A stretch of DNA of 64,000 nt, taken from assembly GCF_009689585.1 (NCBI RefSeq), contig NZ_AP018694.1, positions 434,001 through 498,000 of the forward strand, in the 5' to 3' direction. Numbering within the stretch: position 1 is the stretch's first letter; each line of letters begins with the position of its first letter. This DNA is from Aquipluma nitroreducens. Its GTDB lineage: Bacteria > Bacteroidota > Bacteroidia > Bacteroidales > Prolixibacteraceae. A program made the position numbers and the translations under genes. Positions 1,609-50,736 of this stretch are shown piece after piece. Under the pieces are notes generated by a model. The model worked only from the letters and a program-made list of their open reading frames with translations, did no database searches and was not told the origin of the DNA.

Positions 1609-2871
1609 GTGAGATACATTGTATTTCTTTCTATCTGGTTTATAAGCTTTATACCATTTGGGGTAAATGCACAAGAAAGCCATAAGGCATTAGACCAAAA
1701 GCTAAACAAAATGGGTTTTGAGAATATTCGCAGCTACTCGCTGGACAACCGGATTTTCATTGCTCTTGAAAATAACATTTACCGTTGGGAGATTGATGCC
1801 ATTGTTACGGCGCTCGATACGATAGTAGCCTACTCCAATCCAGAGTCACAGATTTCGCTTTACGTGCTTAAAAATGACATTCCTCAGTTAGAAATTCGAG
1901 TTCCTGCCAGATTATGGTTGCAGTACCGTTCGGGTAAAATTACAAAGTCCAAATTATTGGATGCTCTGCAGGTCGATTGCAGCATTGACGAAGACTGGAA
2001 ATCTTTGAAAAGAGGGGTTGGTTTAAATTCAAATGTAAACAAAATTGATTTGGTGATTTATCTGCAGTTTGCTATTCAAAACCGGCTACTGACTCAATTG
2101 TACGAAATACAGTTTAATATAGCTCCGGCAGTGGAAGTATCCTTGTGGAAAGGGATGTTATTTACCGGGCAGATCATTTTCCCTCTGAAAAACGATTTGG
2201 AAGTACTGGATATCAAAGAGAATGTGGATTACAAAAGTCGTAATTTTTTATATGCCTCACATGAAGGCGATTATATCCGGCTCGGTTTTATGACTATTTC
2301 TCAGGATATTCGCTTGCCACACCAATGGTTTGCGAACCTGACTCTCGGCAATTTTAATGCCCACCGTTACGGTATGAATGGACAGGTCGATCATTTTTTT
2401 AAGGGAAACCAATGGAGTATCGCCGCTAATGCCGGCTTAACCGGAAGTTCGCACTTTTTGCAGGGACAATGGGTTACCAGCCCAATAAATACCTTTACCT
2501 GGCGGTTAACGTCCGGGTATTTCTACCCCCGATTCAACCTCCAGTTAGATTTAAGCTATGGAAGTTTTCTGAATAATGACAAAGGGTTCCGTGCTGATTG
2601 CGGCCGACACTTTGGTTCTACAACCATTGGTTTTTATGCCATGCATACAGGAAGCGATTTCAATGGCGGATTTAAATTCACCATTCCTTTTCCAACAGCC
2701 AAACGAACCCGGAAACACACCCTCAGGATAACGACACCAAAATATTTCGACTCGGACTACAATGCCGGATACGCGGTGTATTATGGCAAAGATTATGAAA
2801 CACGGCCCAACGAAAATCAAACGGAACACTTTAATAACCCTGTCTTTATAAAAAGTCAGTTAACTAAATAG
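1609..2871 (+). CDS. YjbH-like outer-membrane protein, C-terminal-half type
   Basis: A 420-aa protein starting at GTG, with a signal peptide ending near VNAQ. Residues ~190-400 are rich in alternating aromatic strands (for example RLGFMTISQDIRLPHQWF, then repeated GxF/YxxxF patterns and GGFKFTIPFP), as in the C-terminal beta-barrel of the YjbH/GfcD family. Family knowledge: YjbH/GfcD are outer-membrane barrel proteins of group 4 capsule and exopolysaccharide secretion. The N-terminal-half counterpart is the separate gene at 5076. It lies 112 bp after the sugar transferase, on the same strand. A role in polysaccharide secretion is inferred from family and context. Confidence 0.7.
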   Translation: MRYIVFLSIWFISFIPFGVNAQESHKALDQKLNKMGFENIRSYSLDNRIFIALENNIYRWEIDAIVTALDTIVAYSNPESQISLYVLKNDIPQLEIRVPARLWLQYRSGKITKSKLLDALQVDCSIDEDWKSLKRGVGLNSNVNKIDLVIYLQFAIQNRLLTQLYEIQFNIAPAVEVSLWKGMLFTGQIIFPLKNDLEVLDIKENVDYKSRNFLYASHEGDYIRLGFMTISQDIRLPHQWFANLTLGNFNAHRYGMNGQVDHFFKGNQWSIAANAGLTGSSHFLQGQWVTSPINTFTWRLTSGYFYPRFNLQLDLSYGSFLNNDKGFRADCGRHFGSTTIGFYAMHTGSDFNGGFKFTIPFPTAKRTRKHTLRITTPKYFDSDYNAGYAVYYGKDYETRPNENQTEHFNNPVFIKSQLTK

Positions 2872-9340: not shown

Positions 9341-10722
9341 CAACACTTCGGTTAAAATTTAGTTATTTATCTGATTTACAGTAAAATAACTGATTATTTA
9401 TTAGTATAAAACCGCAGGGATTTGTATCTTTAAAGTATTAATTACCAGTTAATTACTTTAATTATGGCCACCCCTGCGATTTATGATTTGTATTCAAAAG
9501 TTGTTCTTGAAGCTTTATCTGTTTCTAAAATAAAGCTCAATAAATGCAGACGAGATTTTATGATTGAGATTTTCATGCTATACTTAAGTATTCCTTCACG
9601 GATCAACTTCCTTCAGTTAGGCCGATACAGCCTTTTTGGAGAACAACGCTTCCGTGGTCAGTTCGAGCAAGGGTTTGACTTCTTTAGCTTCAACAAAGCC
9701 TTGTCAATGCCTTGGATTGGCAATCGCAATGCTGTTGCTTTCGATCCGAGTTTCATTCCTAAATCGGGCAAACATACCCCTGGAATCGGATACTTTTGGT
9801 CGGGCTGCGCAGGTCGGGCACTTCGTGGTATTGAAATCCTTGGGCTTTCAGTAATCGATGCAGACACAAGATTAAGTTTTCATCTAGATGCCGTACAAAC
9901 GCCTCCGACAAACTGTCTTCAAGATAACGACCTTTCGTTAATCGACTGGTATGCTGGGGTCATCAAAAAACATATTGAACTGATACTGTCCATTACTCGA
10001 TACGTTGTTGCAGATGCGTATTTCTCTAAGAAAAACTTTGTGGATAAGATACTGGGATGCTCCCTCCATTTGGTAAGCAAACTTCGGGAGGACGCCAACT
10101 TATCATACCTTTCGATACAACCCAAAACTGGGAAAAGAGGCAGGCCAGCAAAATATGGAGGAAAAATCGATTTTCGGAAACTAAATCATGAACACTTCAA
10201 TATGGTAGTAAACGATAAAGGTATAATGGCATACTCTGCCATTGTATACTCCAAGTCTCTTGAAAGGAATATCTTGCTGGTTGTAGAACTGTTCCTATTA
10301 AAAGGGAAAACAATTTACAGGCTTTTATTTTCAACAGATACCACACAAACGCCAATCGATGTGATCGATATTTATCATACCCGCTTTCAAATAGAATTTG
10401 GATTCAGGGATGCCAAGCAATTTGCCGGACTTGAAAACTCGCAGGCAAGAAGTGAAAATAAGCTTAATTTCCACTTCAATGCGGCCTTAACAACAGTAAA
10501 TATTGCCAAAGTAATGCAACTTAGAAATCCGCAAACCCGCGAAAACTCATTTTCGATGGCAACTTACAAGATCTTGTTTCATAATACTTTAATGCTATCA
10601 AGATTTTTTCGCCTGTTCGCTATTAACCCGAACTCAATCAAAAATCGTCAACATGTCAATGAACTATTGTATTTCGGCACAATGGCCGCGTAATTACACA
10701 TCACTTTTTGAACGAACTATTG
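9341..10722 (+). mobile_element. IS4-superfamily (YREK) element, copy 1, 1382 bp
   Basis: The ends are imperfect inverted repeats: caacacttcggttaaaa on the left against caatagttcgttcaaaa read inward from the right. The 6-bp direct repeat ctgata flanks it at 9335-9340 and 10723-10728. It carries a single transposase. A second copy of identical length lies at 11450-12831, with only a few base differences. Confidence 0.9.
9464..10693 (+). CDS. DDE transposase, YREK type (copy 1)
   Basis: 409 aa. The Y-x2-R-x3-E-x6-K signature is exact in YHTRFQIEFGFRDAK (residues ~305-319). The other catalytic Asp residues are probably in AFDPSF (~residue 94) and VADAYF (~residue 185). A basic segment, TGKRGRPAKYGG, follows. 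It is a cut-and-paste transposase of the IS4 superfamily; I cannot assign a subgroup. The start ATG lies 123 bp inside the left end. The reading frame is complete, so the element may be active. Confidence 0.9.
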   Translation: MATPAIYDLYSKVVLEALSVSKIKLNKCRRDFMIEIFMLYLSIPSRINFLQLGRYSLFGEQRFRGQFEQGFDFFSFNKALSMPWIGNRNAVAFDPSFIPKSGKHTPGIGYFWSGCAGRALRGIEILGLSVIDADTRLSFHLDAVQTPPTNCLQDNDLSLIDWYAGVIKKHIELILSITRYVVADAYFSKKNFVDKILGCSLHLVSKLREDANLSYLSIQPKTGKRGRPAKYGGKIDFRKLNHEHFNMVVNDKGIMAYSAIVYSKSLERNILLVVELFLLKGKTIYRLLFSTDTTQTPIDVIDIYHTRFQIEFGFRDAKQFAGLENSQARSENKLNFHFNAALTTVNIAKVMQLRNPQTRENSFSMATYKILFHNTLMLSRFFRLFAINPNSIKNRQHVNELLYFGTMAA

Positions 10723-11449: not shown

Positions 11450-12831
11450 CAATACTTCGGTTAAAATTTAGTTATTTATCTGATTTACAGTAAAATAACT
11501 GATTATTTATTAGTATAAAACCGCAGGGATTTGTATCTTTAAAGTATTAATTACCAGTTAATTACTTTAATTATGGCCACCCCTGCGATTTATGATTTGT
11601 ATTCAAAAGTTGTTCTTGAAGCTTTATCTGTTTCTAAAATAAAGCTCAATAAATGCAGACGAGATTTTATGATTGAGATTTTCATGCTATACTTAAGTAT
11701 TCCTTCACGGATCAACTTCCTTCAGTTAGGCCGATACAGCCTTTTTGGAGAACAACGCTTCCGTGGTCAGTTCGAGCAAGGGTTTGACTTCTTTAGCTTC
11801 AACAAAGCCTTGTCAATGCCTTGGATTGGCAATCGCAATGCTGTTGCTTTCGATCCGAGTTTCATTCCTAAATCGGGCAAACATACCCCTGGAATCGGAT
11901 ACTTTTGGTCGGGCTGCGCAGGTCGGGCACTTCGTGGTATTGAAATCCTTGGGCTTTCAGTAATCGATGCAGACACAAGATTAAGTTTTCATCTAGATGC
12001 CGTACAAACGCCTCCGACAAACTGTCTTCAAGATAACGACCTTTCGTTAATCGACTGGTATGCTGGGGTCATCAAAAAACATATTGAACTGATACTGTCC
12101 ATTACTCGATACGTTGTTGCAGATGCGTATTTCTCTAAGAAAAACTTTGTGGATAAGATACTGGGATGCTCCCTCCATTTGGTAAGCAAACTTCGGGAGG
12201 ACGCCAACTTATCATACCTTTCGATACAACCCAAAACTGGGAAAAGAGGCAGGCCAGCAAAATATGGAGGAAAAATCGATTTTCGGAAACTAAATCATGA
12301 ACACTTCAATATGGTAGTAAACGATAAAGGTATAACGGCATACTCTGCCATTGTATACTCCAAGTCTCTTGAAAGGAATATCTTGCTGGTTGTAGAACTG
12401 TTCCTATTAAAAGGGAAAACAATTTACAGGCTTTTATTTTCAACAGATACCACACAAACGCCAATCGATGTGATCGATATTTATCATACCCGCTTTCAAA
12501 TAGAATTTGGATTCAGGGATGCCAAGCAATTTGCCGGACTTGAAAACTCGCAGGCAAGAAGTGAAAATAAGCTTAATTTCCACTTCAATGCGGCCTTAAC
12601 AACTGTAAATATTGCCAAGGTAATGCAACTTAAAAATCCGCAAACCCGGGAAAACTCATTTTCGATGGCAACTTACAAGATCTTGTTTCATAATAAATTA
12701 ATGATATCAAGGTTTTTTCGCCTGTTCGCCATTAACCCGAACTCAATCAAAAATCGTCAACTTGTCAATGAACTATTGTATTTCGGCACAATGGCCGCTT
12801 AATCATATATCACTTTTTGAACGAACTATTG
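11450..12831 (+). mobile_element. IS4-superfamily (YREK) element, copy 2, 1382 bp
   Basis: Same ends and length as the copy at 9341 (left end caatacttcggttaaaa). The 6-bp direct repeat atctaa flanks it at 11444-11449 and 12832-12837. Because each copy has its own different target duplication, the two inserted independently rather than as one composite transposon. Sequence differences are concentrated in the last ~250 bp. Confidence 0.9.
11573..12802 (+). CDS. DDE transposase, YREK type (copy 2)
   Basis: 409 aa, nearly identical to the transposase at 9464. Visible differences are Met to Thr near residue 255 and a few substitutions after residue 350 (for example QLKNPQ, NKLMIS, RQLVNE). The catalytic residues and YREK signature are unchanged, so it is probably functional. 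Confidence 0.9.
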   Translation: MATPAIYDLYSKVVLEALSVSKIKLNKCRRDFMIEIFMLYLSIPSRINFLQLGRYSLFGEQRFRGQFEQGFDFFSFNKALSMPWIGNRNAVAFDPSFIPKSGKHTPGIGYFWSGCAGRALRGIEILGLSVIDADTRLSFHLDAVQTPPTNCLQDNDLSLIDWYAGVIKKHIELILSITRYVVADAYFSKKNFVDKILGCSLHLVSKLREDANLSYLSIQPKTGKRGRPAKYGGKIDFRKLNHEHFNMVVNDKGITAYSAIVYSKSLERNILLVVELFLLKGKTIYRLLFSTDTTQTPIDVIDIYHTRFQIEFGFRDAKQFAGLENSQARSENKLNFHFNAALTTVNIAKVMQLKNPQTRENSFSMATYKILFHNKLMISRFFRLFAINPNSIKNRQLVNELLYFGTMAA

Positions 12832-32315: not shown

Positions 32316-33420
32316 CTATTGATTGTTATTCAGGTTCTTTCTTCTCCTCTTTTTCCTTTTCATTTTCAACTGATATGGCAGGTAATCCGAGCCATATTCG
32401 GGTTGCATCAGATTATCCAGTAAATTTTCAATTTCTTTGAAAGGTGCAGTAATCAGCAAGGTGTTTGGATGCGCCTTGGTTTCTGCATCAAAGGCGGTAG
32501 CCTGAGGCTGTAACCCAGTTGGTTCCTGAACTGAATGCGGAGGCAACTTCTGCTCAGGAACTGTTTTCTGCTGGCAATGTTGCTGAATGGCTTTTGCACT
32601 GTACTGTTTGCCCAATACACTCCCATTAAATACGCATTTAGTCTGGCGATCCACATAAGTGATGCCGTAAATCAAACCGGTATCATTCTGGCGCAGGGCG
32701 ACATGAATACCCTGCTTCTCCAATGCTTTTATTAAATCCTGAAGTGTTACCCTTTTCCCAGTTAAAAATATATCAATGGCATTCTTAACCCGAGATTTGT
32801 GTGGCATACGTTTCGCCTCATTTTCCTTAAACTTCTCTTCCAAAAATTTGAGAGTTGGTTGGTTGTAAAACGTACTTGCCTTAATAGGTATACCAATTGG
32901 AATTCCGTCAGCATTCAAAATGCGGTACAGCAAACCATTGTGCTGGTAAACCCTCGAATTTTCACCGCCCCGTTCGGCCATTACATTGTATTGTTTAAGC
33001 ACAGCATTTAACTCCGGAAGGCTGGAATATCGGTACTGGTTTAACACCGCTTCTAATACATTTTGAATGGCCATTTTGGTTTGTGATTTACCGTACATCA
33101 CCTTTGGCGCGGATACTGGGGTTAAGCGATATTGTTCCTGCTTTTTCTGTGCTTCAGCACTGACCAGTCCGAACTCCTTTTCGATGGCTTTTCGTGCCTG
33201 TTCCGATTGGTTGCGGCCAATGTTGTTCATGTCAATCCGGCTGCCTTCCGGACGCACTTTTATGGATACCAAATGGATATGCGGATGCCCTGCATCATGG
33301 TGCTGATAAACCAGGTATGGTTGTTTTCCGAAGCCGATTTTTTCCATGTAAGTCCTTGCGATTTCAAGTAATTTTTCTTTAGACAAATGGCTTTCTGAAG
33401 GATGAAAATTCAGGGATATA
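32316..33420 (-). pseudogene. mobB: Relaxase MobB, C-terminal part (split by IS21 element)
   Basis: The family-like frame begins at the IS edge (SLNFHPSESHLSKEKL) and runs to the stop at 32316. It contains the metal-binding His cluster HHDAGHPHIHLV (~residues 28-39 of the open frame from 33386), the core of MobB/MobP relaxases. These nick oriT and stay bound to the 5' end. The catalytic N-terminus, with its likely Tyr-containing segment, is on the other side of the IS (36022-36226). Without excision no full relaxase can be made. Confidence 0.85.
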
Positions 33421-33568
33421 TGTGGAAAAAACGGTGAAATTGACCACCCATTTCCAGTTTAAATTGACCACCGGTTGCCGACGCAAATTGACCACCCTTT
33501 GCCGGAGCAAACTGACCACCTAAAACGGATACTTTTTTTCATGTCGTTACCCATACTTTCGTTCAAAA

Positions 33569-35128
33569 ATGGAACGGATTATGGCAAATAAATTAACGGA
33601 CATGAGTAAGATTAGAAAAGCAATTAAATTTCATTGCGGTGGAAAAAGTAAGCTGTTTATAAGCCAATACTTATCCTTATCGAGGAACACGGTAAAAAAA
33701 TACATTTCCCTTTTTGAAGTACAAGGACTGACCCTTGACCAGATCAATCAAAAGACTGATCTTGAACTTGAAACGCTGTTCTCTCACCAAACCGATGAAC
33801 CCATCAGCGCCCGGGTGCAAAAGCTTTATGACTTTTTCCCGTACATGGAACGGGAACTCAAAAAAGTTGGTGTTACCTCCTATGGGATGTGGGAAGAATA
33901 CATCAAAAAGCATCCTGATGGCTATCAAAACTCTCAGTTCCGGGAGTATTACAAACTGTGGGGAAAGAAGGTAAATCCGGTGATGCATATGAACCACAAG
34001 GCTGGTGACAAGATGTATGTTGATTATGCCGGGAAAAAGCTTTCAATCACGGATAAAGACACCGGAGAGATTACCGAAGTTGAGTTTTTTGTTGCCATTT
34101 TGGGGGCAAGTCAATATACCTATGCCGAAGCAACTCCGAGCCAAAAGAAGGAAGAATTTGTTGTATCGGTTGAGAATGCCATGCGCTTTTTCGAAGGCGT
34201 TCCGGCAGCCATAGTTCCGGACAATCTTAAGTCAGCGGTGATAAAAAGTAGCCGTTTTGAGCCCACCATCAACGAAACACTGGCAGATCTGGCAGAACAT
34301 TACGAAACCACTATTCTACCAGCCAGAGCTTATAAACCACGGGACAAATCTTTAGTTGAAGGTGCTGTTAAAATACTATACCGAAGGATTTATGCTGTAC
34401 TGAAGGACGAAACGTTTTTCTCCCTTGCGGAACTGAACGATCGCATTGGAGACCTGTTGGATGCCCACAACAACAGAAAGCTCACTGGTCGTCCATACAC
34501 ACGTTTTGAACTATACAATGACATCGAGAAGGATAAACTGTCGCCACTGCCCATCCAACGCTTTGAGATCAAGTATCAGGCACAGGCAACGGTCATGCAA
34601 AACGGTCATGTGCAGCTCAGTTGTGACAAACATTTTTATAGCGTGCCGTACCAATACATCCGCAAAAAGGTGAAGGTAATGTACACCAGAACAACGGTCG
34701 AGATTTACTTTAAATACAATCGGTTGGCTACCCATCCCCGGGACTACGCACTTTACAGCTACACAACGGTACCCGAACATTTAGCGAGCACCCATCAATT
34801 TGTAACCGACTGGACTGCCCCCAGGTTTATCAATTGGGCAAACAGTATTGACCCAGTTGCCGGGGAATATATCTTTAAAATCATTGAAAGCCGAAACCAT
34901 CCTGAGCAGGCGTTTAAAAGTTGTATGGGGATACTTTCGTTTGAGAAAAAGGTAGGTAAACAAAGACTTATTAATGCCTGTAAACGCGCTCTTGACTTTG
35001 GAACCTACAGTTTTAAAGCCATACAAAACATCTTGGAAAACAACCTGGATATGATCAAGGATGAGACAACAGAAGATCCGGAACTGCCCGAACACAACAA
35101 CATACGAGGGAAGAACTATTACAAATAA
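33569..35128 (+). CDS. istA: IS21 transposase IstA
   Basis: 519 aa. An N-terminal helix-turn-helix (SKLFISQYLSLSRNTVKKY) is followed by an rve-type integrase core, with Asp in DKMYVDYAGK, Asp in VPDNLKS and Glu in SLVEGAVKILYRRIY. A beta-barrel-like C-terminal domain follows. IstA cuts and joins the IS ends together with the AAA+ helper IstB encoded 18 bp downstream. Start ATG 33569 or 33584. Confidence 0.93.
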   Translation: MERIMANKLTDMSKIRKAIKFHCGGKSKLFISQYLSLSRNTVKKYISLFEVQGLTLDQINQKTDLELETLFSHQTDEPISARVQKLYDFFPYMERELKKVGVTSYGMWEEYIKKHPDGYQNSQFREYYKLWGKKVNPVMHMNHKAGDKMYVDYAGKKLSITDKDTGEITEVEFFVAILGASQYTYAEATPSQKKEEFVVSVENAMRFFEGVPAAIVPDNLKSAVIKSSRFEPTINETLADLAEHYETTILPARAYKPRDKSLVEGAVKILYRRIYAVLKDETFFSLAELNDRIGDLLDAHNNRKLTGRPYTRFELYNDIEKDKLSPLPIQRFEIKYQAQATVMQNGHVQLSCDKHFYSVPYQYIRKKVKVMYTRTTVEIYFKYNRLATHPRDYALYSYTTVPEHLASTHQFVTDWTAPRFINWANSIDPVAGEYIFKIIESRNHPEQAFKSCMGILSFEKKVGKQRLINACKRALDFGTYSFKAIQNILENNLDMIKDETTEDPELPEHNNIRGKNYYK

Positions 35129-35146
35129 ACTTAAAATCAAATTATT

Positions 35147-35884
35147 ATGAATGAATCAACGTTGACAAAAATGAGACAAATGAAACTCTCCGGAATGCAT
35201 GGTGCATTTAAAACTGCTGTTGAAACCGGGAAAACTGATCATTACACCATTGATCAGTTTGTATCCATGATTATTGATGCCGAATGGGACGAGCGCCACA
35301 ACCGAAAAATAGAGAGATTAATTAGAAATGCTAAGTTCCATTACAAATCCAGCATCGAAAGCATAACTTTTGATCAATCACGGAACCTGGAACGCAACCT
35401 CATTTTACGACTTGGAGAGTGTGAGTTCGTAGAGAAGAATGAGAATGTTTTAATCACAGGAAGTACTGGTGTGGGTAAAAGTTACTTGGCAACGGCACTG
35501 GGTTATCAGGCATGTATCCAGGGCTACCGGGTAAATTACTTCAATACATCGAAGTTGTTTTCCAAGTTAAAAATGGCAAAAGCCGATGGCTCATACTTGA
35601 AGGAACTAGCGAAAATCGAAAGGCAGGATGTTATTATACTCGATGATTTTGGACTCCAGGCACTCGATAGTCAGAACCGGATAACACTATTGGAAATCAT
35701 CGAAGACAGGCACAATAAAGGTTCCATCATTGTTACCTCACAAATACCTGTTCAGGGATGGTATGATATTATTGGTGAAAAAACCATTGCTGACGCGGTA
35801 TTAGACCGCCTTATCCATCAGGCTCACCGCATCGAATTACATGGTGAATCAATGAGAAAGAAAAAGAGTATCAACAAAGAATAA
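35147..35884 (+). CDS. istB: IS21 helper ATPase IstB
   Basis: 245 aa. Walker A GSTGVGKSYLA (~residue 105), Walker B VIILDDFG, and a DnaC-like sensor region (IIVTSQIPVQGWYDIIGE). IstB is an AAA+ ATPase that selects target DNA and stimulates IstA. Length is normal for the family, and the frame is intact. Confidence 0.93.
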   Translation: MNESTLTKMRQMKLSGMHGAFKTAVETGKTDHYTIDQFVSMIIDAEWDERHNRKIERLIRNAKFHYKSSIESITFDQSRNLERNLILRLGECEFVEKNENVLITGSTGVGKSYLATALGYQACIQGYRVNYFNTSKLFSKLKMAKADGSYLKELAKIERQDVIILDDFGLQALDSQNRITLLEIIEDRHNKGSIIVTSQIPVQGWYDIIGEKTIADAVLDRLIHQAHRIELHGESMRKKKSINKE

Positions 35885-36021
35885 TTTTTACAATTTTGAA
35901 TATCAATTACGACATTGAAAAAAGGTAGTTTTTAGATGGTACTTTTAGGTGGTCAATTTAAATCGGCAACACATGGTCAATTTAAATCGGCACAGGGTGG
36001 TCAGTTTGACCGAATATTACA

Positions 36022-36226
36022 ATATATGCACGCTGTTGCGCTTTACATTTTCGTTGAGTTCAATCTGTTTCAGGAAACGATTCAGCTTTATCGAAAGGCT
36101 CATTTTATCCGAATCAATGGGATAATTTCCGGCCCCCATGCACTCCGCAACTCCTTCTTTTACCTTATTCTCATTGTAGTTAAAAATACGGTGAATGGAG
36201 TTTCCTGTTTTGATTACTGTAACCAT
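36022..36226 (-). pseudogene. mobB: Relaxase MobB, N-terminal part
   Basis: Starts MVTVIKTGNSIHRIFNYNEN, the usual N-terminus of Bacteroides-type MobB relaxases, and continues to RNSVHI, where the IS21 element begins; a stop occurs two codons inside the IS. The start codon overlaps the 3' end of mobA by 13 nt, so the two were translationally coupled. Together with the downstream part, the intact gene would encode ~435 aa. Confidence 0.85.
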
Positions 36227-36603
36227 AATTCTGCTATTTTTTGAACATGCTTTTTGATTTCGTCCACTTTGTTAAAGAGCGTCTTTTTCTCTACCTCATA
36301 AGCGATCAGCCAGCTTCTGAATTCGGTAATCTGGTTAAGTGTATGCAATCGTTTTACAGCCTGGTTGAAGTTGTTTCCGATGTGGTTCAGTTCATTTCTA
36401 AGCTGCACCATTTCAGCCATAAATTCATACAAAGATTGGTTCCGGTAGTAACTGGTTACAGGTTTTTCAAAAAGGCTATGCCTCACATAATCGCTTAGCT
36501 TTCGGCAGGTGCTCGCCTTCCATTTTCGTTCAATTTTTGTATACTCGGCGGGTGTCTGGCGTAGCCCTATGATGCGTGTCCGGTTTGAATTCTCTCTTCC
36601 CAT
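36214..36603 (-). CDS. mobA: Mobilization accessory protein MobA (relaxosome protein)
   Basis: 129 aa, basic, with a probable N-terminal ribbon-helix-helix DNA-binding part (RTRIIGLRQTPAEYTKIERKW) and the conserved RHSLFEKPVTSYYRNQSL and LRNELNHIGNNFNQAVKRLH segments of the MobC-like relaxosome family (named MobA in Bacteroides elements). It binds near oriT and helps the relaxase. The likely oriT lies immediately upstream. Confidence 0.82.
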   Translation of the reverse strand: MGRENSNRTRIIGLRQTPAEYTKIERKWKASTCRKLSDYVRHSLFEKPVTSYYRNQSLYEFMAEMVQLRNELNHIGNNFNQAVKRLHTLNQITEFRSWLIAYEVEKKTLFNKVDEIKKHVQKIAELWLQ

Positions 36604-45874: not shown

Positions 45875-45904
45875 AAAAAAAGAGGCATTTCGCCTCTTTT
45901 TTTT
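45875..45904. terminator. Bidirectional intrinsic terminator
   Basis: A run of seven A residues, then agaggc, loop atttc, gcctct, and a run of eight T residues. The stem is perfect and has U-tracts in both directions, so it can end both the nuclease transcript and the convergent accessory gene. Confidence 0.85.
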
Positions 45905-46266
45905 CAGAATTTAATCAGATCTTCAACTTCTTTGATCTTTTCATCCAAAGTGGATTTGATCTCATCCATCACGGCTGATACAACCGGGGTATTAGAGGTT
46001 TTAAACTCCTTACCTGAAGCATCCCGAAGGAATACAGTGGCACCCATTCCATCGGCACCCAGCGAGAAGGTCTGAAGATTTCTGCGAGTTTCGGTTAACT
46101 TGCGCCACTTTTCAATGAGCATGCTCAGATCTTCCACTTTCTGGATGCGCTTTTCCAATGAAGGAACTTCAACAACTGCCACTTTTTCATCTTTCTTTAC
46201 TACTTCCAAAGAAGCTTTGGGTTGTTCAGCAACTTCTGAATCAAGTTTTTTAGCTGCATTATTCAT
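45904..46266 (-). CDS. Mobile-element accessory protein (120 aa), unknown function
   Basis: I chose ATG 46266 (MNNAAKKLDSEVAEQP) over the longer frame from 46350, because the longer frame runs through the repeated leader. The product has a helical, charged N-terminus (VEVPSLEKRIQKVEDLSMLI) and a beta-containing middle (LGADGMGATVFLRDASG). Similar small proteins accompany ArdC and methylase genes in Bacteroidota mobile elements. It carries leader copy 1 upstream and a terminator directly downstream. Confidence 0.65.
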   Translation of the reverse strand: MNNAAKKLDSEVAEQPKASLEVVKKDEKVAVVEVPSLEKRIQKVEDLSMLIEKWRKLTETRRNLQTFSLGADGMGATVFLRDASGKEFKTSNTPVVSAVMDEIKSTLDEKIKEVEDLIKF

Positions 46267-46500
46267 AATTATTTGCCGTTGCCCTACGGTCTTTTTATGG
46301 CATCTGGCTCGCCGGTTAAAATTTCGGCGTAACCGACATTGAGCTGTCACGGATTAGGTCAACGGGGTGCATGTCAGTTTCATGCAAAAATGGGCAACCC
46401 ATGAAACTGAACGCATCTGAAAGACGGTTGCTTTTCTGTTTTTTTAAGCAACCGCCCCTTTACCGTTCCGTGAAGCGCAAATAGCTTTGCCCGCAATTTT
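46267..46500 (-). promoter_or_regulatory. Repeated 5' leader, copy 1
   Basis: Related to the leaders at 48226 and 49260. On the minus strand it has a 9-bp hairpin (cggttgctt/aagcaaccg), the conserved cagtttcatg/catgaaactg stem, the word gtgacagctcaat, and a final hairpin ccgt-agggca-acgg that ends 9 nt before the ATG. It is the most divergent of the three copies. Confidence 0.7.
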
Positions 46501-46538
46501 AAATGGAGTGGTTTTACCTTTTAAAAAATTGAACGAAC

Positions 46539-46561
46539 AAAAAAGGGGCATTTCTGCCCCT
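46539..46561 (-). terminator. Intrinsic terminator after methylase-like gene
   Basis: On the minus strand, ggggca-gaaa-tgcccc is followed by a T6 run. It overlaps the stop codon of the methylase-like gene and separates it from leader copy 1. Confidence 0.8.
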
Positions 46562-47255
46562 AGAATTCAAACAACAACTGCTGCGTTGCAGCCTGTTTCT
46601 TGATGATTTCTTCTTTCCTCTCCGGCAACTTTAGCACCATGTAGCTTTCTTCTTTGGTTATTTCACGGATATATGGGACTATCCTCTCCGGATGGAGTTC
46701 TATCCTCCAACCTCCATAAAAGCGGGTCATCAGCGTGTCCATCCAACAGACTTCTCCCAAAAGTCCATTCAGGCATAGATTGATCAAACACATCATTGCA
46801 CAGGTGCGGTCAATATCTGCTCCAAAGAATAACGATTTTCGGCTTACCCTTCCTGCTGCCAGCAACATCCTGCCAGAGCCACAACAACAATCGGCCACCT
46901 TCTCACCAAAACCTGCAGGGTTCAATATTCTGGACATCATATCACATATTGGTTCCGGGGTGAAAAACTGTCCATTCCTGCCATAGCTGAGGTATTCCAT
47001 GTAAAAATCACCAAAACCATCTTTAAGCCCATCACCGTTGCTGTCCATTTCGATAACCAGTGAACCAAAAGCTTCAGCCATCAGGTAGGCATCCGGTTTC
47101 TCGTAATTACGGACAATCTCCAGGTAACGGTCTTCCTTTGCCCCTAAAGACAACGAACAAACAACCATTTCCAAAAAATCATCGAATACGGAATGTAAGC
47201 CGTACTTATGCCCGATCTGAAGAATATAACTTGAAAAACTTTTTAACTGTTCCAT
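46560..47255 (-). CDS. N-6 DNA methylase-like protein lacking a clear catalytic NPPY
   Basis: 231 aa. It resembles the HsdM/N6_Mtase fold: GQFFTPEPICDMMSRIL before the SAM-binding motif VADCCCGSGRMLLAAG, then FFGADIDRTCAMM for the second strand. Where N-6 adenine methylases have (D/N)PPY, the sequence here (MDTLMTRFYGGWRI) has no such motif. It may bind SAM or DNA without methylating, for example as an antirestriction or regulatory protein. It lies between ArdC and the 120-aa gene and has no repeated leader. Confidence 0.7.
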   Translation of the reverse strand: MEQLKSFSSYILQIGHKYGLHSVFDDFLEMVVCSLSLGAKEDRYLEIVRNYEKPDAYLMAEAFGSLVIEMDSNGDGLKDGFGDFYMEYLSYGRNGQFFTPEPICDMMSRILNPAGFGEKVADCCCGSGRMLLAAGRVSRKSLFFGADIDRTCAMMCLINLCLNGLLGEVCWMDTLMTRFYGGWRIELHPERIVPYIREITKEESYMVLKLPERKEEIIKKQAATQQLLFEF

Positions 47256-47303
47256 ATCTTTAATATTTAATTGTTTCTAACTGTGAAATTTTGAGATAAA
47301 AAA

Positions 47304-47325
47304 GCGAAGGCTAAACTGCCTTCGC
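47304..47325 (-). terminator. Intrinsic terminator after ardC-like gene
   Basis: Arms gcgaaggc and gccttcgc with a 6-nt loop, followed on the minus strand by a T6 run (plus 47298-47303). The stem begins inside the last codons of the ardC-like gene. Confidence 0.8.
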
Positions 47326-48225
47326 CATATGATCAACCAAAGCGGCACTTGCCGCCTGGTTGGGATGAACCTGATGTTCCAGTATGTAATCAACAGCCTT
47401 CTGTGCCTGAGAAGAAGCAATCAGCAACATCTTTTTATCTTCCTTGAATTTGCCAATCCAGCTTTTGATATAGGCAGCACTGTTGTCTATCGTGGCATTT
47501 TGAATACCGGTCATGTAGCAAAGGTATGCGGCTCCCAATTCGGCAACCAGTTCTTCCTGGCTGTAATCCTGTGAACCGAATTTGTGATCGGAAAGCTTTT
47601 CATGTCGGCCAGTCCTGTTGATATGCCCTGTAGAATGGACTAGCTCGTGGTAAAGTGTCGAGTAATACTGTTCGTCCTTGAAGAAAGTCCGTGGATTTGG
47701 CATCCCCACGTAATCTCCGGTAGGCGAATAGAACGCATGTGACTGGTCAAGCCTGATTTCTGGACTATCGTACCAAAATTCAATTAACTGCTCGGCATCG
47801 CCAATCGGATCAAATATATGGTCGTGTGCTTCTGTCGCCGGAATCTTGCTTTCATCAATACCTTCGGTTTGTTTCAGGTTGAAAACGGTATAATACCGAA
47901 GGAAAGGGATGTGGTCAATGCTGCCGTCTTTTTCTTCCGAATCCAGTAGCTTCCAGAATACCACAGGGAAACCTTTTTCACCTTTCAAAACATGACCACC
48001 TAATTCTTTGATCTGGTTGAAGGTGAGAAAGAAAGGAGAACCAAACTTATCTGCCACTGTCAACAGCAACCAGAAATTAAAACCACGGTAAGCTTTCTTG
48101 TGAACCATGTTTTGTGGAAATCCTATTTCAGCTTTCCAAGGCATCTGCCAAGGAACAACACCTGCTTCAAGGCGGTCAATAATCAGGTTGGTAACCATTT
48201 CATAAATATCGAATGAAGTATTCAT
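47311..48225 (-). CDS. ardC: ArdC-like antirestriction protein (ssDNA-binding, zinc metallopeptidase fold)
   Basis: 304 aa. The N-terminal domain (VPWQMPWKAEIGFPQNMV, RGFNFWLLLTVADKFGSPFF) matches the ArdC N-terminal ssDNA-binding domain. The C-terminal half has the zincin motif YHELVHSTGH and QEELVAELGAAYLC, the usual third ligand region. ArdC proteins are carried by conjugative elements and protect incoming DNA from restriction. Leader copy 2 abuts its start. Confidence 0.85.
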   Translation of the reverse strand: MNTSFDIYEMVTNLIIDRLEAGVVPWQMPWKAEIGFPQNMVHKKAYRGFNFWLLLTVADKFGSPFFLTFNQIKELGGHVLKGEKGFPVVFWKLLDSEEKDGSIDHIPFLRYYTVFNLKQTEGIDESKIPATEAHDHIFDPIGDAEQLIEFWYDSPEIRLDQSHAFYSPTGDYVGMPNPRTFFKDEQYYSTLYHELVHSTGHINRTGRHEKLSDHKFGSQDYSQEELVAELGAAYLCYMTGIQNATIDNSAAYIKSWIGKFKEDKKMLLIASSQAQKAVDYILEHQVHPNQAASAALVDHMAKAV

Positions 48226-48500
48226 GGGAAATTGCCGCTGCCCTGCGGACTTATTTTGGCTCCCTTCGATTTAACTAAGGAAATATCTGGCACGCCGTTA
48301 AACTTAAATTTTTGGCATACCAATATTGAGCTGTCACGGATCAGGTCAATGGGGTGCATGTCAGTTTCATGCCCGAAATGGGCAATCCATGAAACTGAAC
48401 GCATCCGAAGGAAACGAGCTACGAAAAGCGAGTTCCCCTTTACCATTCCGTGAAGCGATTAATAACTTTGTCGGAAATTTGAGTGTAACATATAACCTTA
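48226..48500 (-). promoter_or_regulatory. Repeated 5' leader, copy 2
   Basis: Nearly identical to copy 3 for about 200 bp. On the minus strand it ends with the hairpin ccgc-agggca-gcgg, 9 nt before the ardC-like ATG. Further upstream are tcagtttcatg/catgaaactga (an 11-bp stem) with a small inner stem, and the conserved block cggaa(t/c)ggtaaagggg. It starts just after the terminator of the zinc-ribbon gene. Confidence 0.75.
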
Positions 48501-48532
48501 TAATAGATTTTTGTTAACTGACTAAGAACGAA

Positions 48533-48554
48533 CAAAAAAGGGGCAAAAAGCCCC
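48533..48554 (-). terminator. Intrinsic terminator after zinc-ribbon gene
   Basis: On the minus strand ggggc-ttttt-gcccc is followed by a T6 run. It lies 8 bp after the stop of the 70-aa gene. Confidence 0.75.
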
Positions 48555-48561
48555 AATCATT

Positions 48562-48774
48562 TTAATATGGATTTCCATTTCCTGCATAAACATCTTCGTC
48601 TGCTGAAGCCGAAAGGAAACTGCGGTATTCCGGCTCTCCGCAACCAGAGCATAACAAGGTTTGTGTTCGTGGCCAATAATAGGCTATGGTTCCTTTGGGC
48701 AATCGAGTTTGACACTTCGCACAGCAACTGGGATATCGAACTACAATCTGTTTTGGATCATCTTTATATCGCAT
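48562..48774 (-). CDS. Small zinc-ribbon-like protein (70 aa)
   Basis: Cys pairs SCCAKCQTRLPKG and LLCSGCGEPEY form a likely zinc ribbon. The C-terminus is acidic (SASADEDVYAG). It follows the DUF6573-like gene by 50 bp, before a terminator, so the two probably form a bicistronic transcript. Function unknown; similar proteins occur in Bacteroidota mobile elements. Confidence 0.65.
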   Translation of the reverse strand: MRYKDDPKQIVVRYPSCCAKCQTRLPKGTIAYYWPRTQTLLCSGCGEPEYRSFLSASADEDVYAGNGNPY

Positions 48775-48824
48775 AATAAATACCTCCTATGATTTTGTTT
48801 TAAAAAATTGTTTGCTTGAATTCA

Positions 48825-49259
48825 CTAATCTTCGTTTGGTTTCATGATAAAAATGGCAGGTGACGGATCGTCGAAATCCTGCGCCTGAATGACGGCTTTG
48901 AGGGTAACCAATCTATTGAATCGATTTTCAGGTGATTCAAGTTTCTCATTGGGTTCCCAGTTACATTCATCAGGCAGATAGCTAATAAAATCGTACTGTA
49001 AAAAATTGGAGGAAACATTCCGGGCATGAAAAGCAAACATGAACAGCACATCCCAAAGGCGGCCTGAAAGGTTTTGTAGTTGCTCCATACCTTTCGGAAC
49101 TTCAACATATTTGTCCCATGCTGCCCGTGTCAGATAAACTGGGTACTTAATACCTGCTTCTTCGGAAGCTTTGCTGTCAACTTTAACAAGGAAGCCGTCT
49201 TCCACAGCTTGCCGGGTTGAATACGTGGAAATAATTTCCCAACCATTTGAATCTTTCAT
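48825..49259 (-). CDS. Mobile-element accessory protein, DUF6573-like
   Basis: 144 aa from ATG 49259 (MKDSNGWEIISTYSTRQAVE); the longer in-frame opening from 49370 lies inside the leader. DGFLVKVD, YPVYLTRAAWDKYVEVPKGM and GRLWDVLFMFAFHAR resemble the DUF6573 pattern found on plasmids and conjugative elements. Leader copy 3 ends 8 nt before the start. Confidence 0.6.
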   Translation of the reverse strand: MKDSNGWEIISTYSTRQAVEDGFLVKVDSKASEEAGIKYPVYLTRAAWDKYVEVPKGMEQLQNLSGRLWDVLFMFAFHARNVSSNFLQYDFISYLPDECNWEPNEKLESPENRFNRLVTLKAVIQAQDFDDPSPAIFIMKPNED

Positions 49260-49525
49260 TGATTTTGCTGCTGCCTTGCAGACTTTTGATGGCACCCTTT
49301 GATTTAACTCAGGGCATATCTGGCACGCCGTTAAACTTAAATTTTTGGCGTACCAACATTGAGCTGTCACGGATCAGGTCAATGGGGTGCATGTCAGTTT
49401 CATGCCAGAAATGGCCAATCCATGAAACTGAACGCATCCAAAGGAAACGAGCCACGAAAAGCGAGTTCCCCTTTACCGTTCCGCGAAGCGATCAATAACT
49501 TTGTCGGAAATTTGAGTGTAATAGA
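49260..49525 (-). promoter_or_regulatory. Repeated 5' leader, copy 3
   Basis: Minus strand: the last hairpin is ctgc-aaggca-gcag, so all three leaders keep a 4-bp stem with compensating changes (CCGC/GCGG, CTGC/GCAG, CCGT/ACGG) around an A(A/G)GGCA loop. The 11-bp stem tcagtttcatg/catgaaactga is also kept. A short frame starting GTGACAGCTCAATGTTGG runs in this copy into the gene itself; in copy 2 it stops early, so it is probably not translated usefully. Confidence 0.75.
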
Positions 49526-49719
49526 AACTTCGGTTAAATATCCATGGTCTAACTTTAAAAATGCTAGTCGCTATAAATGAGACTACCAATCTTGTTATGG
49601 CTATCAATAAAACTAATTTGAGTTGTAAAATAATTGTAAGTTTATAACTTAAATTTAAGTTTATTTTGATAAATTAGGAGTCTTAATAAAAACACTGTCA
49701 ACAACTAATCAATCTACTT

Positions 49720-50736
49720 ATGGAAATAATATTTAATCGCTTGTATAAAATTGATGTTGATACACAGTCCGCAGCACAAGAGCAATTCCAAGAACACGAT
49801 AATCTGGATAACTATATTATGGATTTGTTAGAAAAAGTTACAGAGGAAGAAGGTGATCGGTTGTATAAGTATGAGGAAGGCTCAACAACAATCAAATCTA
49901 TTTTAGATGATATAATTCAGGGAGATAACTACGATAATTATTGTAGCCTTTTAGCAAGTAGATTGCTACAAGAGGAAACTGTGGCTCAAGAAAGATATGG
50001 ACACCTCCATGATATTCAGAAAGGAATGCTTATAGTTTCTTATGTCCAAATGACTGCAACCGAAAATAAGATAATTATCTCAAAAGCTGATTATGATACT
50101 TTTATAGAGGAGATTACTGGGCAAATAAAAAGTGGATTACCCTTAAAAAAGAAAATATTCAAAGCTTTTGTTGCCAATGTAAGCAGAGGCAATGTCTCAA
50201 AAATGGTCACTTATGACATGAATGCGAAAGTATCTAAATATTGGTGGAAGGAATTTTTAGAGTTATCTGTAATTCGCGGAGATATTGAAAATATGGAGAC
50301 TGCATTCAATGCAATTCAAAGTGATATACTGAACCCGCTAAAGAAAAAATATGAATCTGATTATATTCATTTGTGGAATGCTTCCATTGCATATTTCAGA
50401 GCGACTGGCGAATTTAATTTAAATCACTATAGAGATGAAATAATAGGAAATTATGTTCCATTTAACAATGATATCGCAATTGAATCACTTAAAGAAAAAT
50501 GTAATAAATTACCTCAAAAATACGGCTTTGATGTTAGGTTTGAGAAAGTTCCTTCTGTCATCAGTAAGAAAACTGAAAAGACGCTGGTGCTTTCTGAAGA
50601 AATTGAACTAGTTATGAAACATGATGTTGCAAATTTGAGGAAAACATTTAAACCCTATGAAGATGAAGATGGGAAATATATCATGATTCAAAGCGAAAAA
50701 GGATATAATTTTGCACAAAAACTGAGAAATGAATGA
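49720..50736 (+). CDS. NdpA-like (37-kDa nucleoid-associated) protein, divergent
   Basis: 338 aa with no signal or membrane segment. The layout resembles NdpA/YejK-type proteins: an acidic helical N-terminus, a central DIQKGMLIVSYVQMTATENK strand pair with IIISKADYDTFIEEI, GLPLKKKIFKAFVANVS, and a terminal segment DEDGKYIMIQSEKGYNFAQK. Similarity is weak, so this is an inference from pattern. It overlaps the membrane protein gene by 4 bp (ATGA), so the two are translationally coupled and probably act together. Confidence 0.45.
   Translation: MEIIFNRLYKIDVDTQSAAQEQFQEHDNLDNYIMDLLEKVTEEEGDRLYKYEEGSTTIKSILDDIIQGDNYDNYCSLLASRLLQEETVAQERYGHLHDIQKGMLIVSYVQMTATENKIIISKADYDTFIEEITGQIKSGLPLKKKIFKAFVANVSRGNVSKMVTYDMNAKVSKYWWKEFLELSVIRGDIENMETAFNAIQSDILNPLKKKYESDYIHLWNASIAYFRATGEFNLNHYRDEIIGNYVPFNNDIAIESLKEKCNKLPQKYGFDVRFEKVPSVISKKTEKTLVLSEEIELVMKHDVANLRKTFKPYEDEDGKYIMIQSEKGYNFAQKLRNE

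Follow-up and report, generated by a model that had tools for sequence, protein, structure and literature searches.

Three related leaders and their shared core

We identified a repeated structured leader sequence in Aquipluma nitroreducens, within a stretch of 64,000 nucleotides (nt) of contig NZ_AP018694.1 (positions 434,001 to 498,000, hereafter the window). Three minus-strand genes of the window, which code for a DUF6573 protein, an ArdC-type anti-restriction protein and a 120-residue accessory protein, are each preceded by a related leader that runs up to the start codon. This arrangement had been claimed in a preliminary description of the locus and is borne out by coordinates and sequence identities. 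Copy A (49265-49521) abuts the ATG of the DUF6573 gene at 49259, copy B (48232-48488) that of ardC at 48225, and copy C (about 46274-46504) that of the 120-residue protein gene at 46266. Copies A and B are 92% identical across 257 nt, and copy C is 75-86% identical to both in a piecewise comparison. Other features of the locus are given in Table 1.

All three leaders end in one core of 42-66 nt, which consists of a hairpin P1 (3 base pairs, bp), an A-rich linker and a hairpin P2 (5 bp with a bulge), and which is located 7 or 8 nt before the ATG. The loops of P1 and P2 are complementary (GCC/GGC) and are predicted to form a kissing helix. The last stem was already described as a 4-bp helix with compensating changes (CTGC/GCAG, CCGC/GCGG and CCGT/ACGG) around a loop A(A/G)GGCA, exactly as we find it; P2 of the window copies is extended by a G-C pair on the other side of a bulged base (T, T and A in copies A, B and C) and lies 7, 8 and 8 nt from the ATG. 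An 11-bp stem that had been noticed further upstream, tcagtttcatg/catgaaactga, is kept in copies A, B and C, but forms the top of an arm whose fold differs in other long copies. New relative to the earlier observation are the P1 hairpin, the pairing between the loops, a short form of the element and its breadth of occurrence.

Covariation in genomes and viral contigs

Three copies alone cannot prove covariation, and enlarged sets were therefore needed; these do prove it. A covariance model (R1) was built from 80 core sequences, and its matches were kept at expectation values (E) up to 0.01, which gave 176 matches in 79 fetched stretches. The improved model R2 gave 166 matches in 80 stretches of a viral database, representing 80 of 82 loci that came from a degenerate core pattern in viral contigs. 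The covariance-model search that had been proposed earlier returned many matches upstream of ardC and other genes, with further covariation. When the distinct cores were compiled, 20 of the 176 genome matches (length-shifted, truncated or insertion-disrupted) and 9 repeats were omitted. Alignment A3 of the genome set has 123 distinct rows. Alignment A4 was made from the best 150 of the 166 viral-contig matches with a model from which the kissing helix was absent, and also has 123 distinct rows. A3 and A4 have only 6 of 240 distinct rows in common.

In A3, the base pairs hold in 97.9% of cells, compared to 84.3% in shuffled alignments, and 183 double-sided changes were observed against 50.1 in shuffles, a number reached by none of 500 shuffles. 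Pairing was found in 94.3% of P1 cells, 100% of kissing-helix cells and 98.9% of P2 cells, whereas controls in which the strands were slid gave 38.6% at most. Five rows had a compensatory kissing pair, with ACC/GGT among those seen. In A4, 99.0% of cells were paired, with 192 double-sided changes versus 53.5 in shuffles (P1 97.0% and P2 99.8%); its kissing helix was paired in 368 of 369 cells (99.7%). These values are to be read with the caveat that rows were aligned to P1 and P2 and that the search pattern fixed most kissing letters. Position 3 of P1, which this pattern left free (Y with R), was C-G in 88 rows of A4, U-A in 24, U-G in 6 and unpaired in 5. Distant copies showed the P1 variants GGC/GCC, GGT/ACC, GGG/CCC and TGC/GCA and the kissing-helix variants GCC/GGC, ACC/GGT and GCT/GGC. 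A second candidate partner of the P2 loop, the GCC just before the linker, was rejected, as it had zero compensatory changes compared to five for the GCC of the P1 loop.

Many unpaired bases are invariant across the core copies. An extra variable hairpin was present in the P1 loop of window copies A and B, and also in 33 of 80 sequences in A1, 20 of 128 in A3 and 2 of 150 in A4. Over the 240 distinct rows, the non-Watson-Crick cells of the core comprised 50 G·U, 6 A·C and 32 others, 27 of the latter in P1. Such a surplus of G·U relative to A·C is what RNA, but not DNA, would show, and points to the sense-strand transcript. Together, the alignments show two covarying hairpins with complementary loops, that is, a conserved predicted fold of the sense-strand RNA. 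With covariation in two sets, the G·U bias and no Rfam match (see below), the earlier assignment to an RNA element that is backed by compensation and belongs to no described family is upheld. It had also been suggested that the purine-rich P2 loop is shown or hidden; in that form the idea lacks support, as the GGC of this loop is complementary to the P1 loop in 719 of 720 cells.

Position at the start codon

The ATG lies 7-9 nt downstream of P2 in 161 of the 176 genome-set matches and 118 of 130 distinct viral copies. The 3' strand of P2 thus occupies the place expected of a Shine-Dalgarno helix, at about -13 to -8. Among 238 distinct spacers, the segment between P2 and the ATG was poor in G (2-5% at -6 to -1, and 11% at -7). 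No linear Shine-Dalgarno signal was found at this site, where the P2 3' strand is variable and GGAG occurs in 10 of 147 distinct cores. The P2 loop is also a poor candidate for a Shine-Dalgarno sequence: its GG lies 14-15 nt from the ATG in the window copies, beyond the usual 7-9 nt upstream of the start (PMC6847099), and Bacteroidia ribosomes are described as blind to such sequences (PMC6847099, PMC9976891). Base pairing in Flavobacterium johnsoniae is reported to be reduced from -20 to +20, the start region being usually weakly structured (PMC6847099). Given ribosomes that do not recognise Shine-Dalgarno sequences and weakly structured starts, a conserved helix at this site is unusual. That the element probably controls translation, as first proposed, fits the fixed spacing of 7-9 nt and is kept here as a prediction.

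Long and short forms

The segment of approximately 70 nt before the ATG also stands alone, and occurs in series before consecutive small genes, as at L060:8378-10217 of the source genome with two long and two short copies. The long form, as in the window, accounted for 87 of 174 copies. The median gap to the preceding gene on the same strand was 283 nt for long forms (80 of 82 had such a gene) versus 31.5 nt for short forms (78 of 80), suggesting that the long form tends to stand first in an operon and the short form inside it.

For the long leaders, 4 of 87 were omitted by hand and 7 of the other 83 did not parse, which left 76; the counts on the long arm and on the anti-P1 strand that follow are uncorrected for shared ancestry. 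In the basal stem of the long arm, pairs of three types made one position complementary in all 76 leaders (mean 32.6 and maximum 45 when shuffled); another was complementary in 57 (32.5, maximum 43) and a third in 71 (66.6, maximum 70). In most long forms, a strand upstream of the core is complementary to the 5' strand of P1 and the kissing strand and may pair with them: over the last 30 nt, the mean duplex energy was -9.9 for long forms versus -5.1 when shuffled, and -4.4 versus -4.2 for short forms. Similarly, 60 of 77 long forms offered a Watson-Crick anti-P1 partner to the variable base N (mean 37.6 and maximum 49 on permutation), versus 13 of 85 short forms (17.3). These data suggest, and do not prove, that the long form might act as a switch. 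We also observed that CTCAA is repeated in the long leaders (for example, window 49330-49521): it occurs at their 5' end and behind the basal stem, and some leaders have it just before the core as well.

Distribution

When copy B was compared by blastn with 61 relatives, matches were found in 17 genomes, 14 of which belong to the same genus. The source genome has 20 copies at five loci, each with mobile-type genes nearby, and in the genus the element was detected in 18 of 23 genomes, with up to 35 copies per genome. In the sample of the order, it was found in 25 of 344 genomes from 17 families (counted by hand from the table). Two of the 25 rest on weak matches, one with E 2.7e-4 in a copy that is interrupted past the start of the P2 loop and one with E 4.6e-4. 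An even draw from the phylum and a class sample (searched with R2) gave 1 of 395 genomes each, in both cases the source genome; these large searches apply stricter filters. Nine stretches found with the long-leader pattern had names: seven were metagenome-assembled genomes of Prolixibacteraceae, and the others were labelled 'Bacteroidetes' and 'Bacteroidia'. From the names of matched stretches, we infer that the order carrying the element is Bacteroidales.

Searches with the whole leader returned little beyond the genus: blastn of copy B in plasmids and phages and the long-leader pattern in viral contigs gave no matches. Cultured Crassvirales had no match at E up to 1 (DAC15 and 'frurule' searched whole, DAC17, cr126_1 and cr106_1 in part). 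Given this absence in the Crassvirales records searched, carriage by cultured phages is not claimed.

Downstream genes and mobile context

The 298 proteins encoded downstream of the element, a few of them fragmentary, formed 60 clusters. Six of ten cluster representatives had Pfam matches above cut-off, namely RadC, ArdC, DUF6573, DnaJ, RecT and N6-methylase. Pfam queries were the window protein for ArdC, the L059 orthologue for DUF6573 and the L073 orthologue for the 120-residue protein. In 12 gene families, 193 of 249 genes had the element according to a simple pattern, 6 had a Shine-Dalgarno-like sequence instead and 50 had neither, although at least 5 of these 50 show diverged or insertion-disrupted copies; homologues without a placeable start were skipped in this count. 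One example involved the family of the 70-residue protein encoded between copies A and B, a putative zinc ribbon judging by its cysteine pairs, whose orthologue had no Pfam match. Of its 29 members, 15 are preceded by the element and 6 by a Shine-Dalgarno-like sequence, and the other 8 lack both according to the pattern (one with a diverged copy). The window member has AGGAGG where relatives carry the element, which is odd for a Bacteroidia-type genome.

Table 1. Element copies and associated genes in the window.
Feature	Position	Strand	Basis
Core element copy A (P1, insert hairpin, A-rich linker, P2 with predicted kissing loop), before DUF6573 gene	49264..49329	-	cmsearch with R1, 51.0 bits, E 7e-12
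P2 hairpin copy A, loop AAGGCA, 7 nt to ATG	49267..49283	-	Sequence; structure from covariation sets
Long leader 5' part copy A (conserved 5' segment, basal stem and variable arm, putative anti-P1 strand)	49330..49521	-	nhmmer match, 192 nt, upstream of core; basal stem covariation
DUF6573 gene, 144 residues, led by copy A	48825..49259	-	Open reading frame; PF20213 matched with L059 orthologue as query
Putative zinc-ribbon gene, 70 residues, without element; AGGAGG at 48783-48788 instead	48562..48774	-	Sequence, open reading frame
Core element copy B, before ardC	48231..48296	-	cmsearch with R1, 59.5 bits
P2 hairpin copy B, loop AGGGCA, 8 nt to ATG	48234..48250	-	Sequence
Long leader 5' part copy B	48297..48488	-	nhmmer match
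ArdC-type anti-restriction gene, 304 residues, led by copy B	47311..48225	-	PF08401 E 4.9e-33, PF18818 E 8.1e-34 (window protein as query)
N6-methylase-like gene, 231 residues, without element, between ardC and copy C	46560..47255	-	Open reading frame; cluster 17; PF02384 matched with L225 homologue
Core element copy C, without insert hairpin, before 120-residue protein gene	46272..46313	-	cmsearch with R1, 60.8 bits
P2 hairpin copy C, loop AGGGCA, 8 nt to ATG	46275..46291	-	Sequence
Long leader 5' part copy C	46314..46504	-	nhmmer match
Accessory gene, 120 residues, led by copy C	45904..46266	-	Open reading frame; element in 48 of 48 homologues counted

In the source genome, the loci contain TraG (L061), an integrase (L062), DUF3945/DUF4099 (L139) or a relaxase and a coupling protein (the window and L060). 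L121 encodes a DUF6712 protein, which we take to be a phage head gene product. Relaxase, coupling-protein, MobC or primase homologues were detected in just 6 of 77 stretches; the status of a mobile element rests partly on other genes and is not demonstrated for every locus. Two divergent copies with ACC/GGT kissing pairs were found at L153:9654-11788 before small secreted-type proteins, beside an integrase-like open reading frame of 411 residues. A 104-kb contig (L226), whose probable crAss-like nature rests on a 93-residue protein gene, has one copy before this gene (2175-2503, minus strand), whereas a second copy of the gene and its relatives in cultured Crassvirales are without the element. 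The element has thus been gained or lost independently of this gene. The predicted fold of the 120-residue protein had a mean predicted local distance difference test score of 74, with residues 1-31 below 50, and its sequence-profile search against the PDB gave a best E of 0.46.

Several additional observations were made at these loci. A transposon with a transposase that is presumably IS110-like lies inside the P2 loop of one copy (L045:7832-9460), and similar left or right junctions in the P2 loop occur at L154:114-169 and in L049 near position 62; from these junctions, an insertion sequence appears to target the element. A 102-residue protein ending in DDLPF, which we assume to be an SSB-like tail, is encoded at L060:7464-7772 and is present in 41 of 159 stretches; no element was seen in the 30 regions viewed upstream of it, many of which have TTCCTCCTTGA(C/G)TGCCCCTCC. 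In the window, genes assumed to be IS21-like (33569-35884) lie between a relaxase remnant and MobC (32316-36603), genes which overlap in the relative L060, and two nearly identical transposase-like open reading frames of 409 residues are located at 9464-10693 and 11573-12802.

Interpretation

We consider it probable that the element is a cis-acting structured RNA which governs how translation starts on genes of conjugative elements, prophages and some phages of one order. A compact fold at or against the messenger RNA (mRNA) exit site of the 30S subunit would determine how often each cistron is initiated, whether it docks the Shine-Dalgarno-blind ribosome itself or works through a trans-acting factor. 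Long copies would be two-state switches, in the kissing fold or sequestered; the first gene would be regulated via its long copy, and internal copies would follow.

Several observations weigh against this model. No trans-acting factor was found among the protein families near the copies in 159 stretches, and no Bacteroides-type promoter was seen upstream of the long leader when a base-frequency table was inspected by eye. The division between the two forms is imperfect: the gap to the upstream gene exceeds 150 nt in 22 of 78 short forms and stays within 120 nt in 11 of 80 long forms. The anti-P1 signal weakens when 53 less redundant rows are used (38, versus a permuted mean of 27.6 and maximum of 37), and two of five covariation measures in A4 are not clearly above shuffles (pairs with a double change, 33 of 500; further pair types, 115 of 500). 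Homologues without the element (50 of 249, and those of cultured Crassvirales) indicate that it is dispensable for expression. Finally, given that start regions of F. johnsoniae usually have little structure (PMC6847099), inhibition by the fold is conceivable.

The direction of the effect may be argued either way. Three observations favour a role that is linked to the ribosome and possibly positive: the fixed spacing at the Shine-Dalgarno site, the exchange with Shine-Dalgarno-like sequences in one family and the adoption by unrelated elements. The usual lack of structure near starts favours an inhibitory role. One tentative possibility is that the element is a portable start-site module, whose P2 helix replaces the Shine-Dalgarno/anti-Shine-Dalgarno helix and docks Bacteroidales ribosomes, and which would let mobile elements and phages translate establishment genes in any host of the order.

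The main rival involves a protein partner. The element might be an operator, comparable to those of phage coat proteins or ribosomal proteins, for a trans-acting RNA-binding protein that coordinates an establishment regulon as its repressor or activator. It would then still act on translation, but with a protein in place of the ribosome as its partner. The many conserved unpaired bases, the identical type of element before unrelated genes, and its presence in all 48 counted homologues of the 120-residue protein gene are in line with such a role, which we nevertheless hold to be doubtful. No protein family is near all copies, the commonest being present in 57 of 159 stretches, although this is a weak argument, as short stretches are numerous in the set and a protein encoded by the host would go unnoticed. 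In addition, the model of the 120-residue protein had no match at E 0.001 in a structure comparison with the PDB (best E 0.36).

Other explanations fare worse. A riboswitch that senses a metabolite or ion common to mobile elements could account for the compact fold, the conserved loops and the possible alternative pairing in the long form, but is improbable, since the 60 downstream clusters have no apparent common pathway, Rfam gave no match, and the 20 source-genome copies lie at five loci, each near mobile-type genes. Similarly improbable is an element acting as DNA, such as a single-stranded promoter (Frpo-like) or a transcription control upon entry of single-stranded DNA into the recipient. 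Although long forms precede anti-restriction genes, as does EGeRS1 (PMC8708921), the G·U bias measured in the core, the constant distance to the ATG and the short forms often located directly behind the previous gene are against it. An RNA processing site or a self-cleaving ribozyme separating cistrons would also have a two-hairpin fold with a conserved linker between genes; it is slightly less plausible still, considering that processing has no need of tightly fixed ATG spacing and that no Rfam family, ribozymes included, was matched. A spreading repeat whose copies differ by chance would agree with the copy numbers in the genus, but is contradicted by the covariation and slide controls and by the sense orientation of 161 of 176 matches at 7-9 nt before the ATG.

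Relation to known systems

Rfam 15 had no match in the window at the gathering score, and positions 46000-49800 were without one up to E 1. At the same limit, the element copies of L060, L168, L146 and L145 were unmatched as well; elsewhere in L146 there were just a transfer RNA and two weak microRNA matches. In the open full-text literature, judged on titles and the starts of abstracts, no paper was recognised as describing the motif. A term search of the main text of PMC8040213, which reports thousands of candidate RNAs, gave no occurrence, and the element may already stand unnamed in such a list. With a covarying sense-strand structure upstream of coding genes, the element would be a new class among structured cis-acting mRNA leaders, a known kind.

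Ribosomal-protein and phage translational operators are structured or pseudoknotted RNAs at the start codon that serve one or a few genes each. Our element shares this location but precedes 60 protein clusters. The Frpo/ssi single-stranded promoters of F and ColIb plasmids act as DNA; they are long, structured repeats that precede anti-restriction genes in the leading region. For our element, in contrast, the sense-strand G·U bias in the core and the presence of intergenic copies suggest action as RNA.

Closest in arrangement is EGeRS1 of the Bacillus plasmid pLS20, in which repeated sequences of predicted structure immediately precede ardC and further establishment operons on a conjugative element (PMC8708921). 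The window has three similar copies, one of them before ardC, on what is presumably a single mobile element. However, EGeRS1 is 420-750 bp long, belongs to a Gram-positive system, lies upstream of the ribosome binding site and prevents read-through, and a short kissing-loop core for each cistron is not part of its description as consulted (PMC8708921). Its resemblance to the long form is one of placement only, and copy B had no blastn match among plasmids. The extended Shine-Dalgarno sequence of rpsU in Flavobacteriales likewise provides Shine-Dalgarno-blind Bacteroidia with a special signal for initiation, about as far from the AUG, but it is linear and pairs with 16S ribosomal RNA (PMC9976891), whereas our element has a predicted intramolecular helix and a G-poor spacer.

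Mobile elements and phages thus appear to place a conserved folded RNA where start regions, in the single species profiled among Bacteroidia with their Shine-Dalgarno-blind ribosomes, usually have little structure (PMC9976891, PMC6847099). The genes that it precedes are many and unrelated, and include anti-restriction and recombination genes. If the element promotes or times translation, it would show mobile elements exploiting a non-standard translation system, and would provide a marker for establishment genes and maybe a compact expression part. If it represses, it would define a new regulon.

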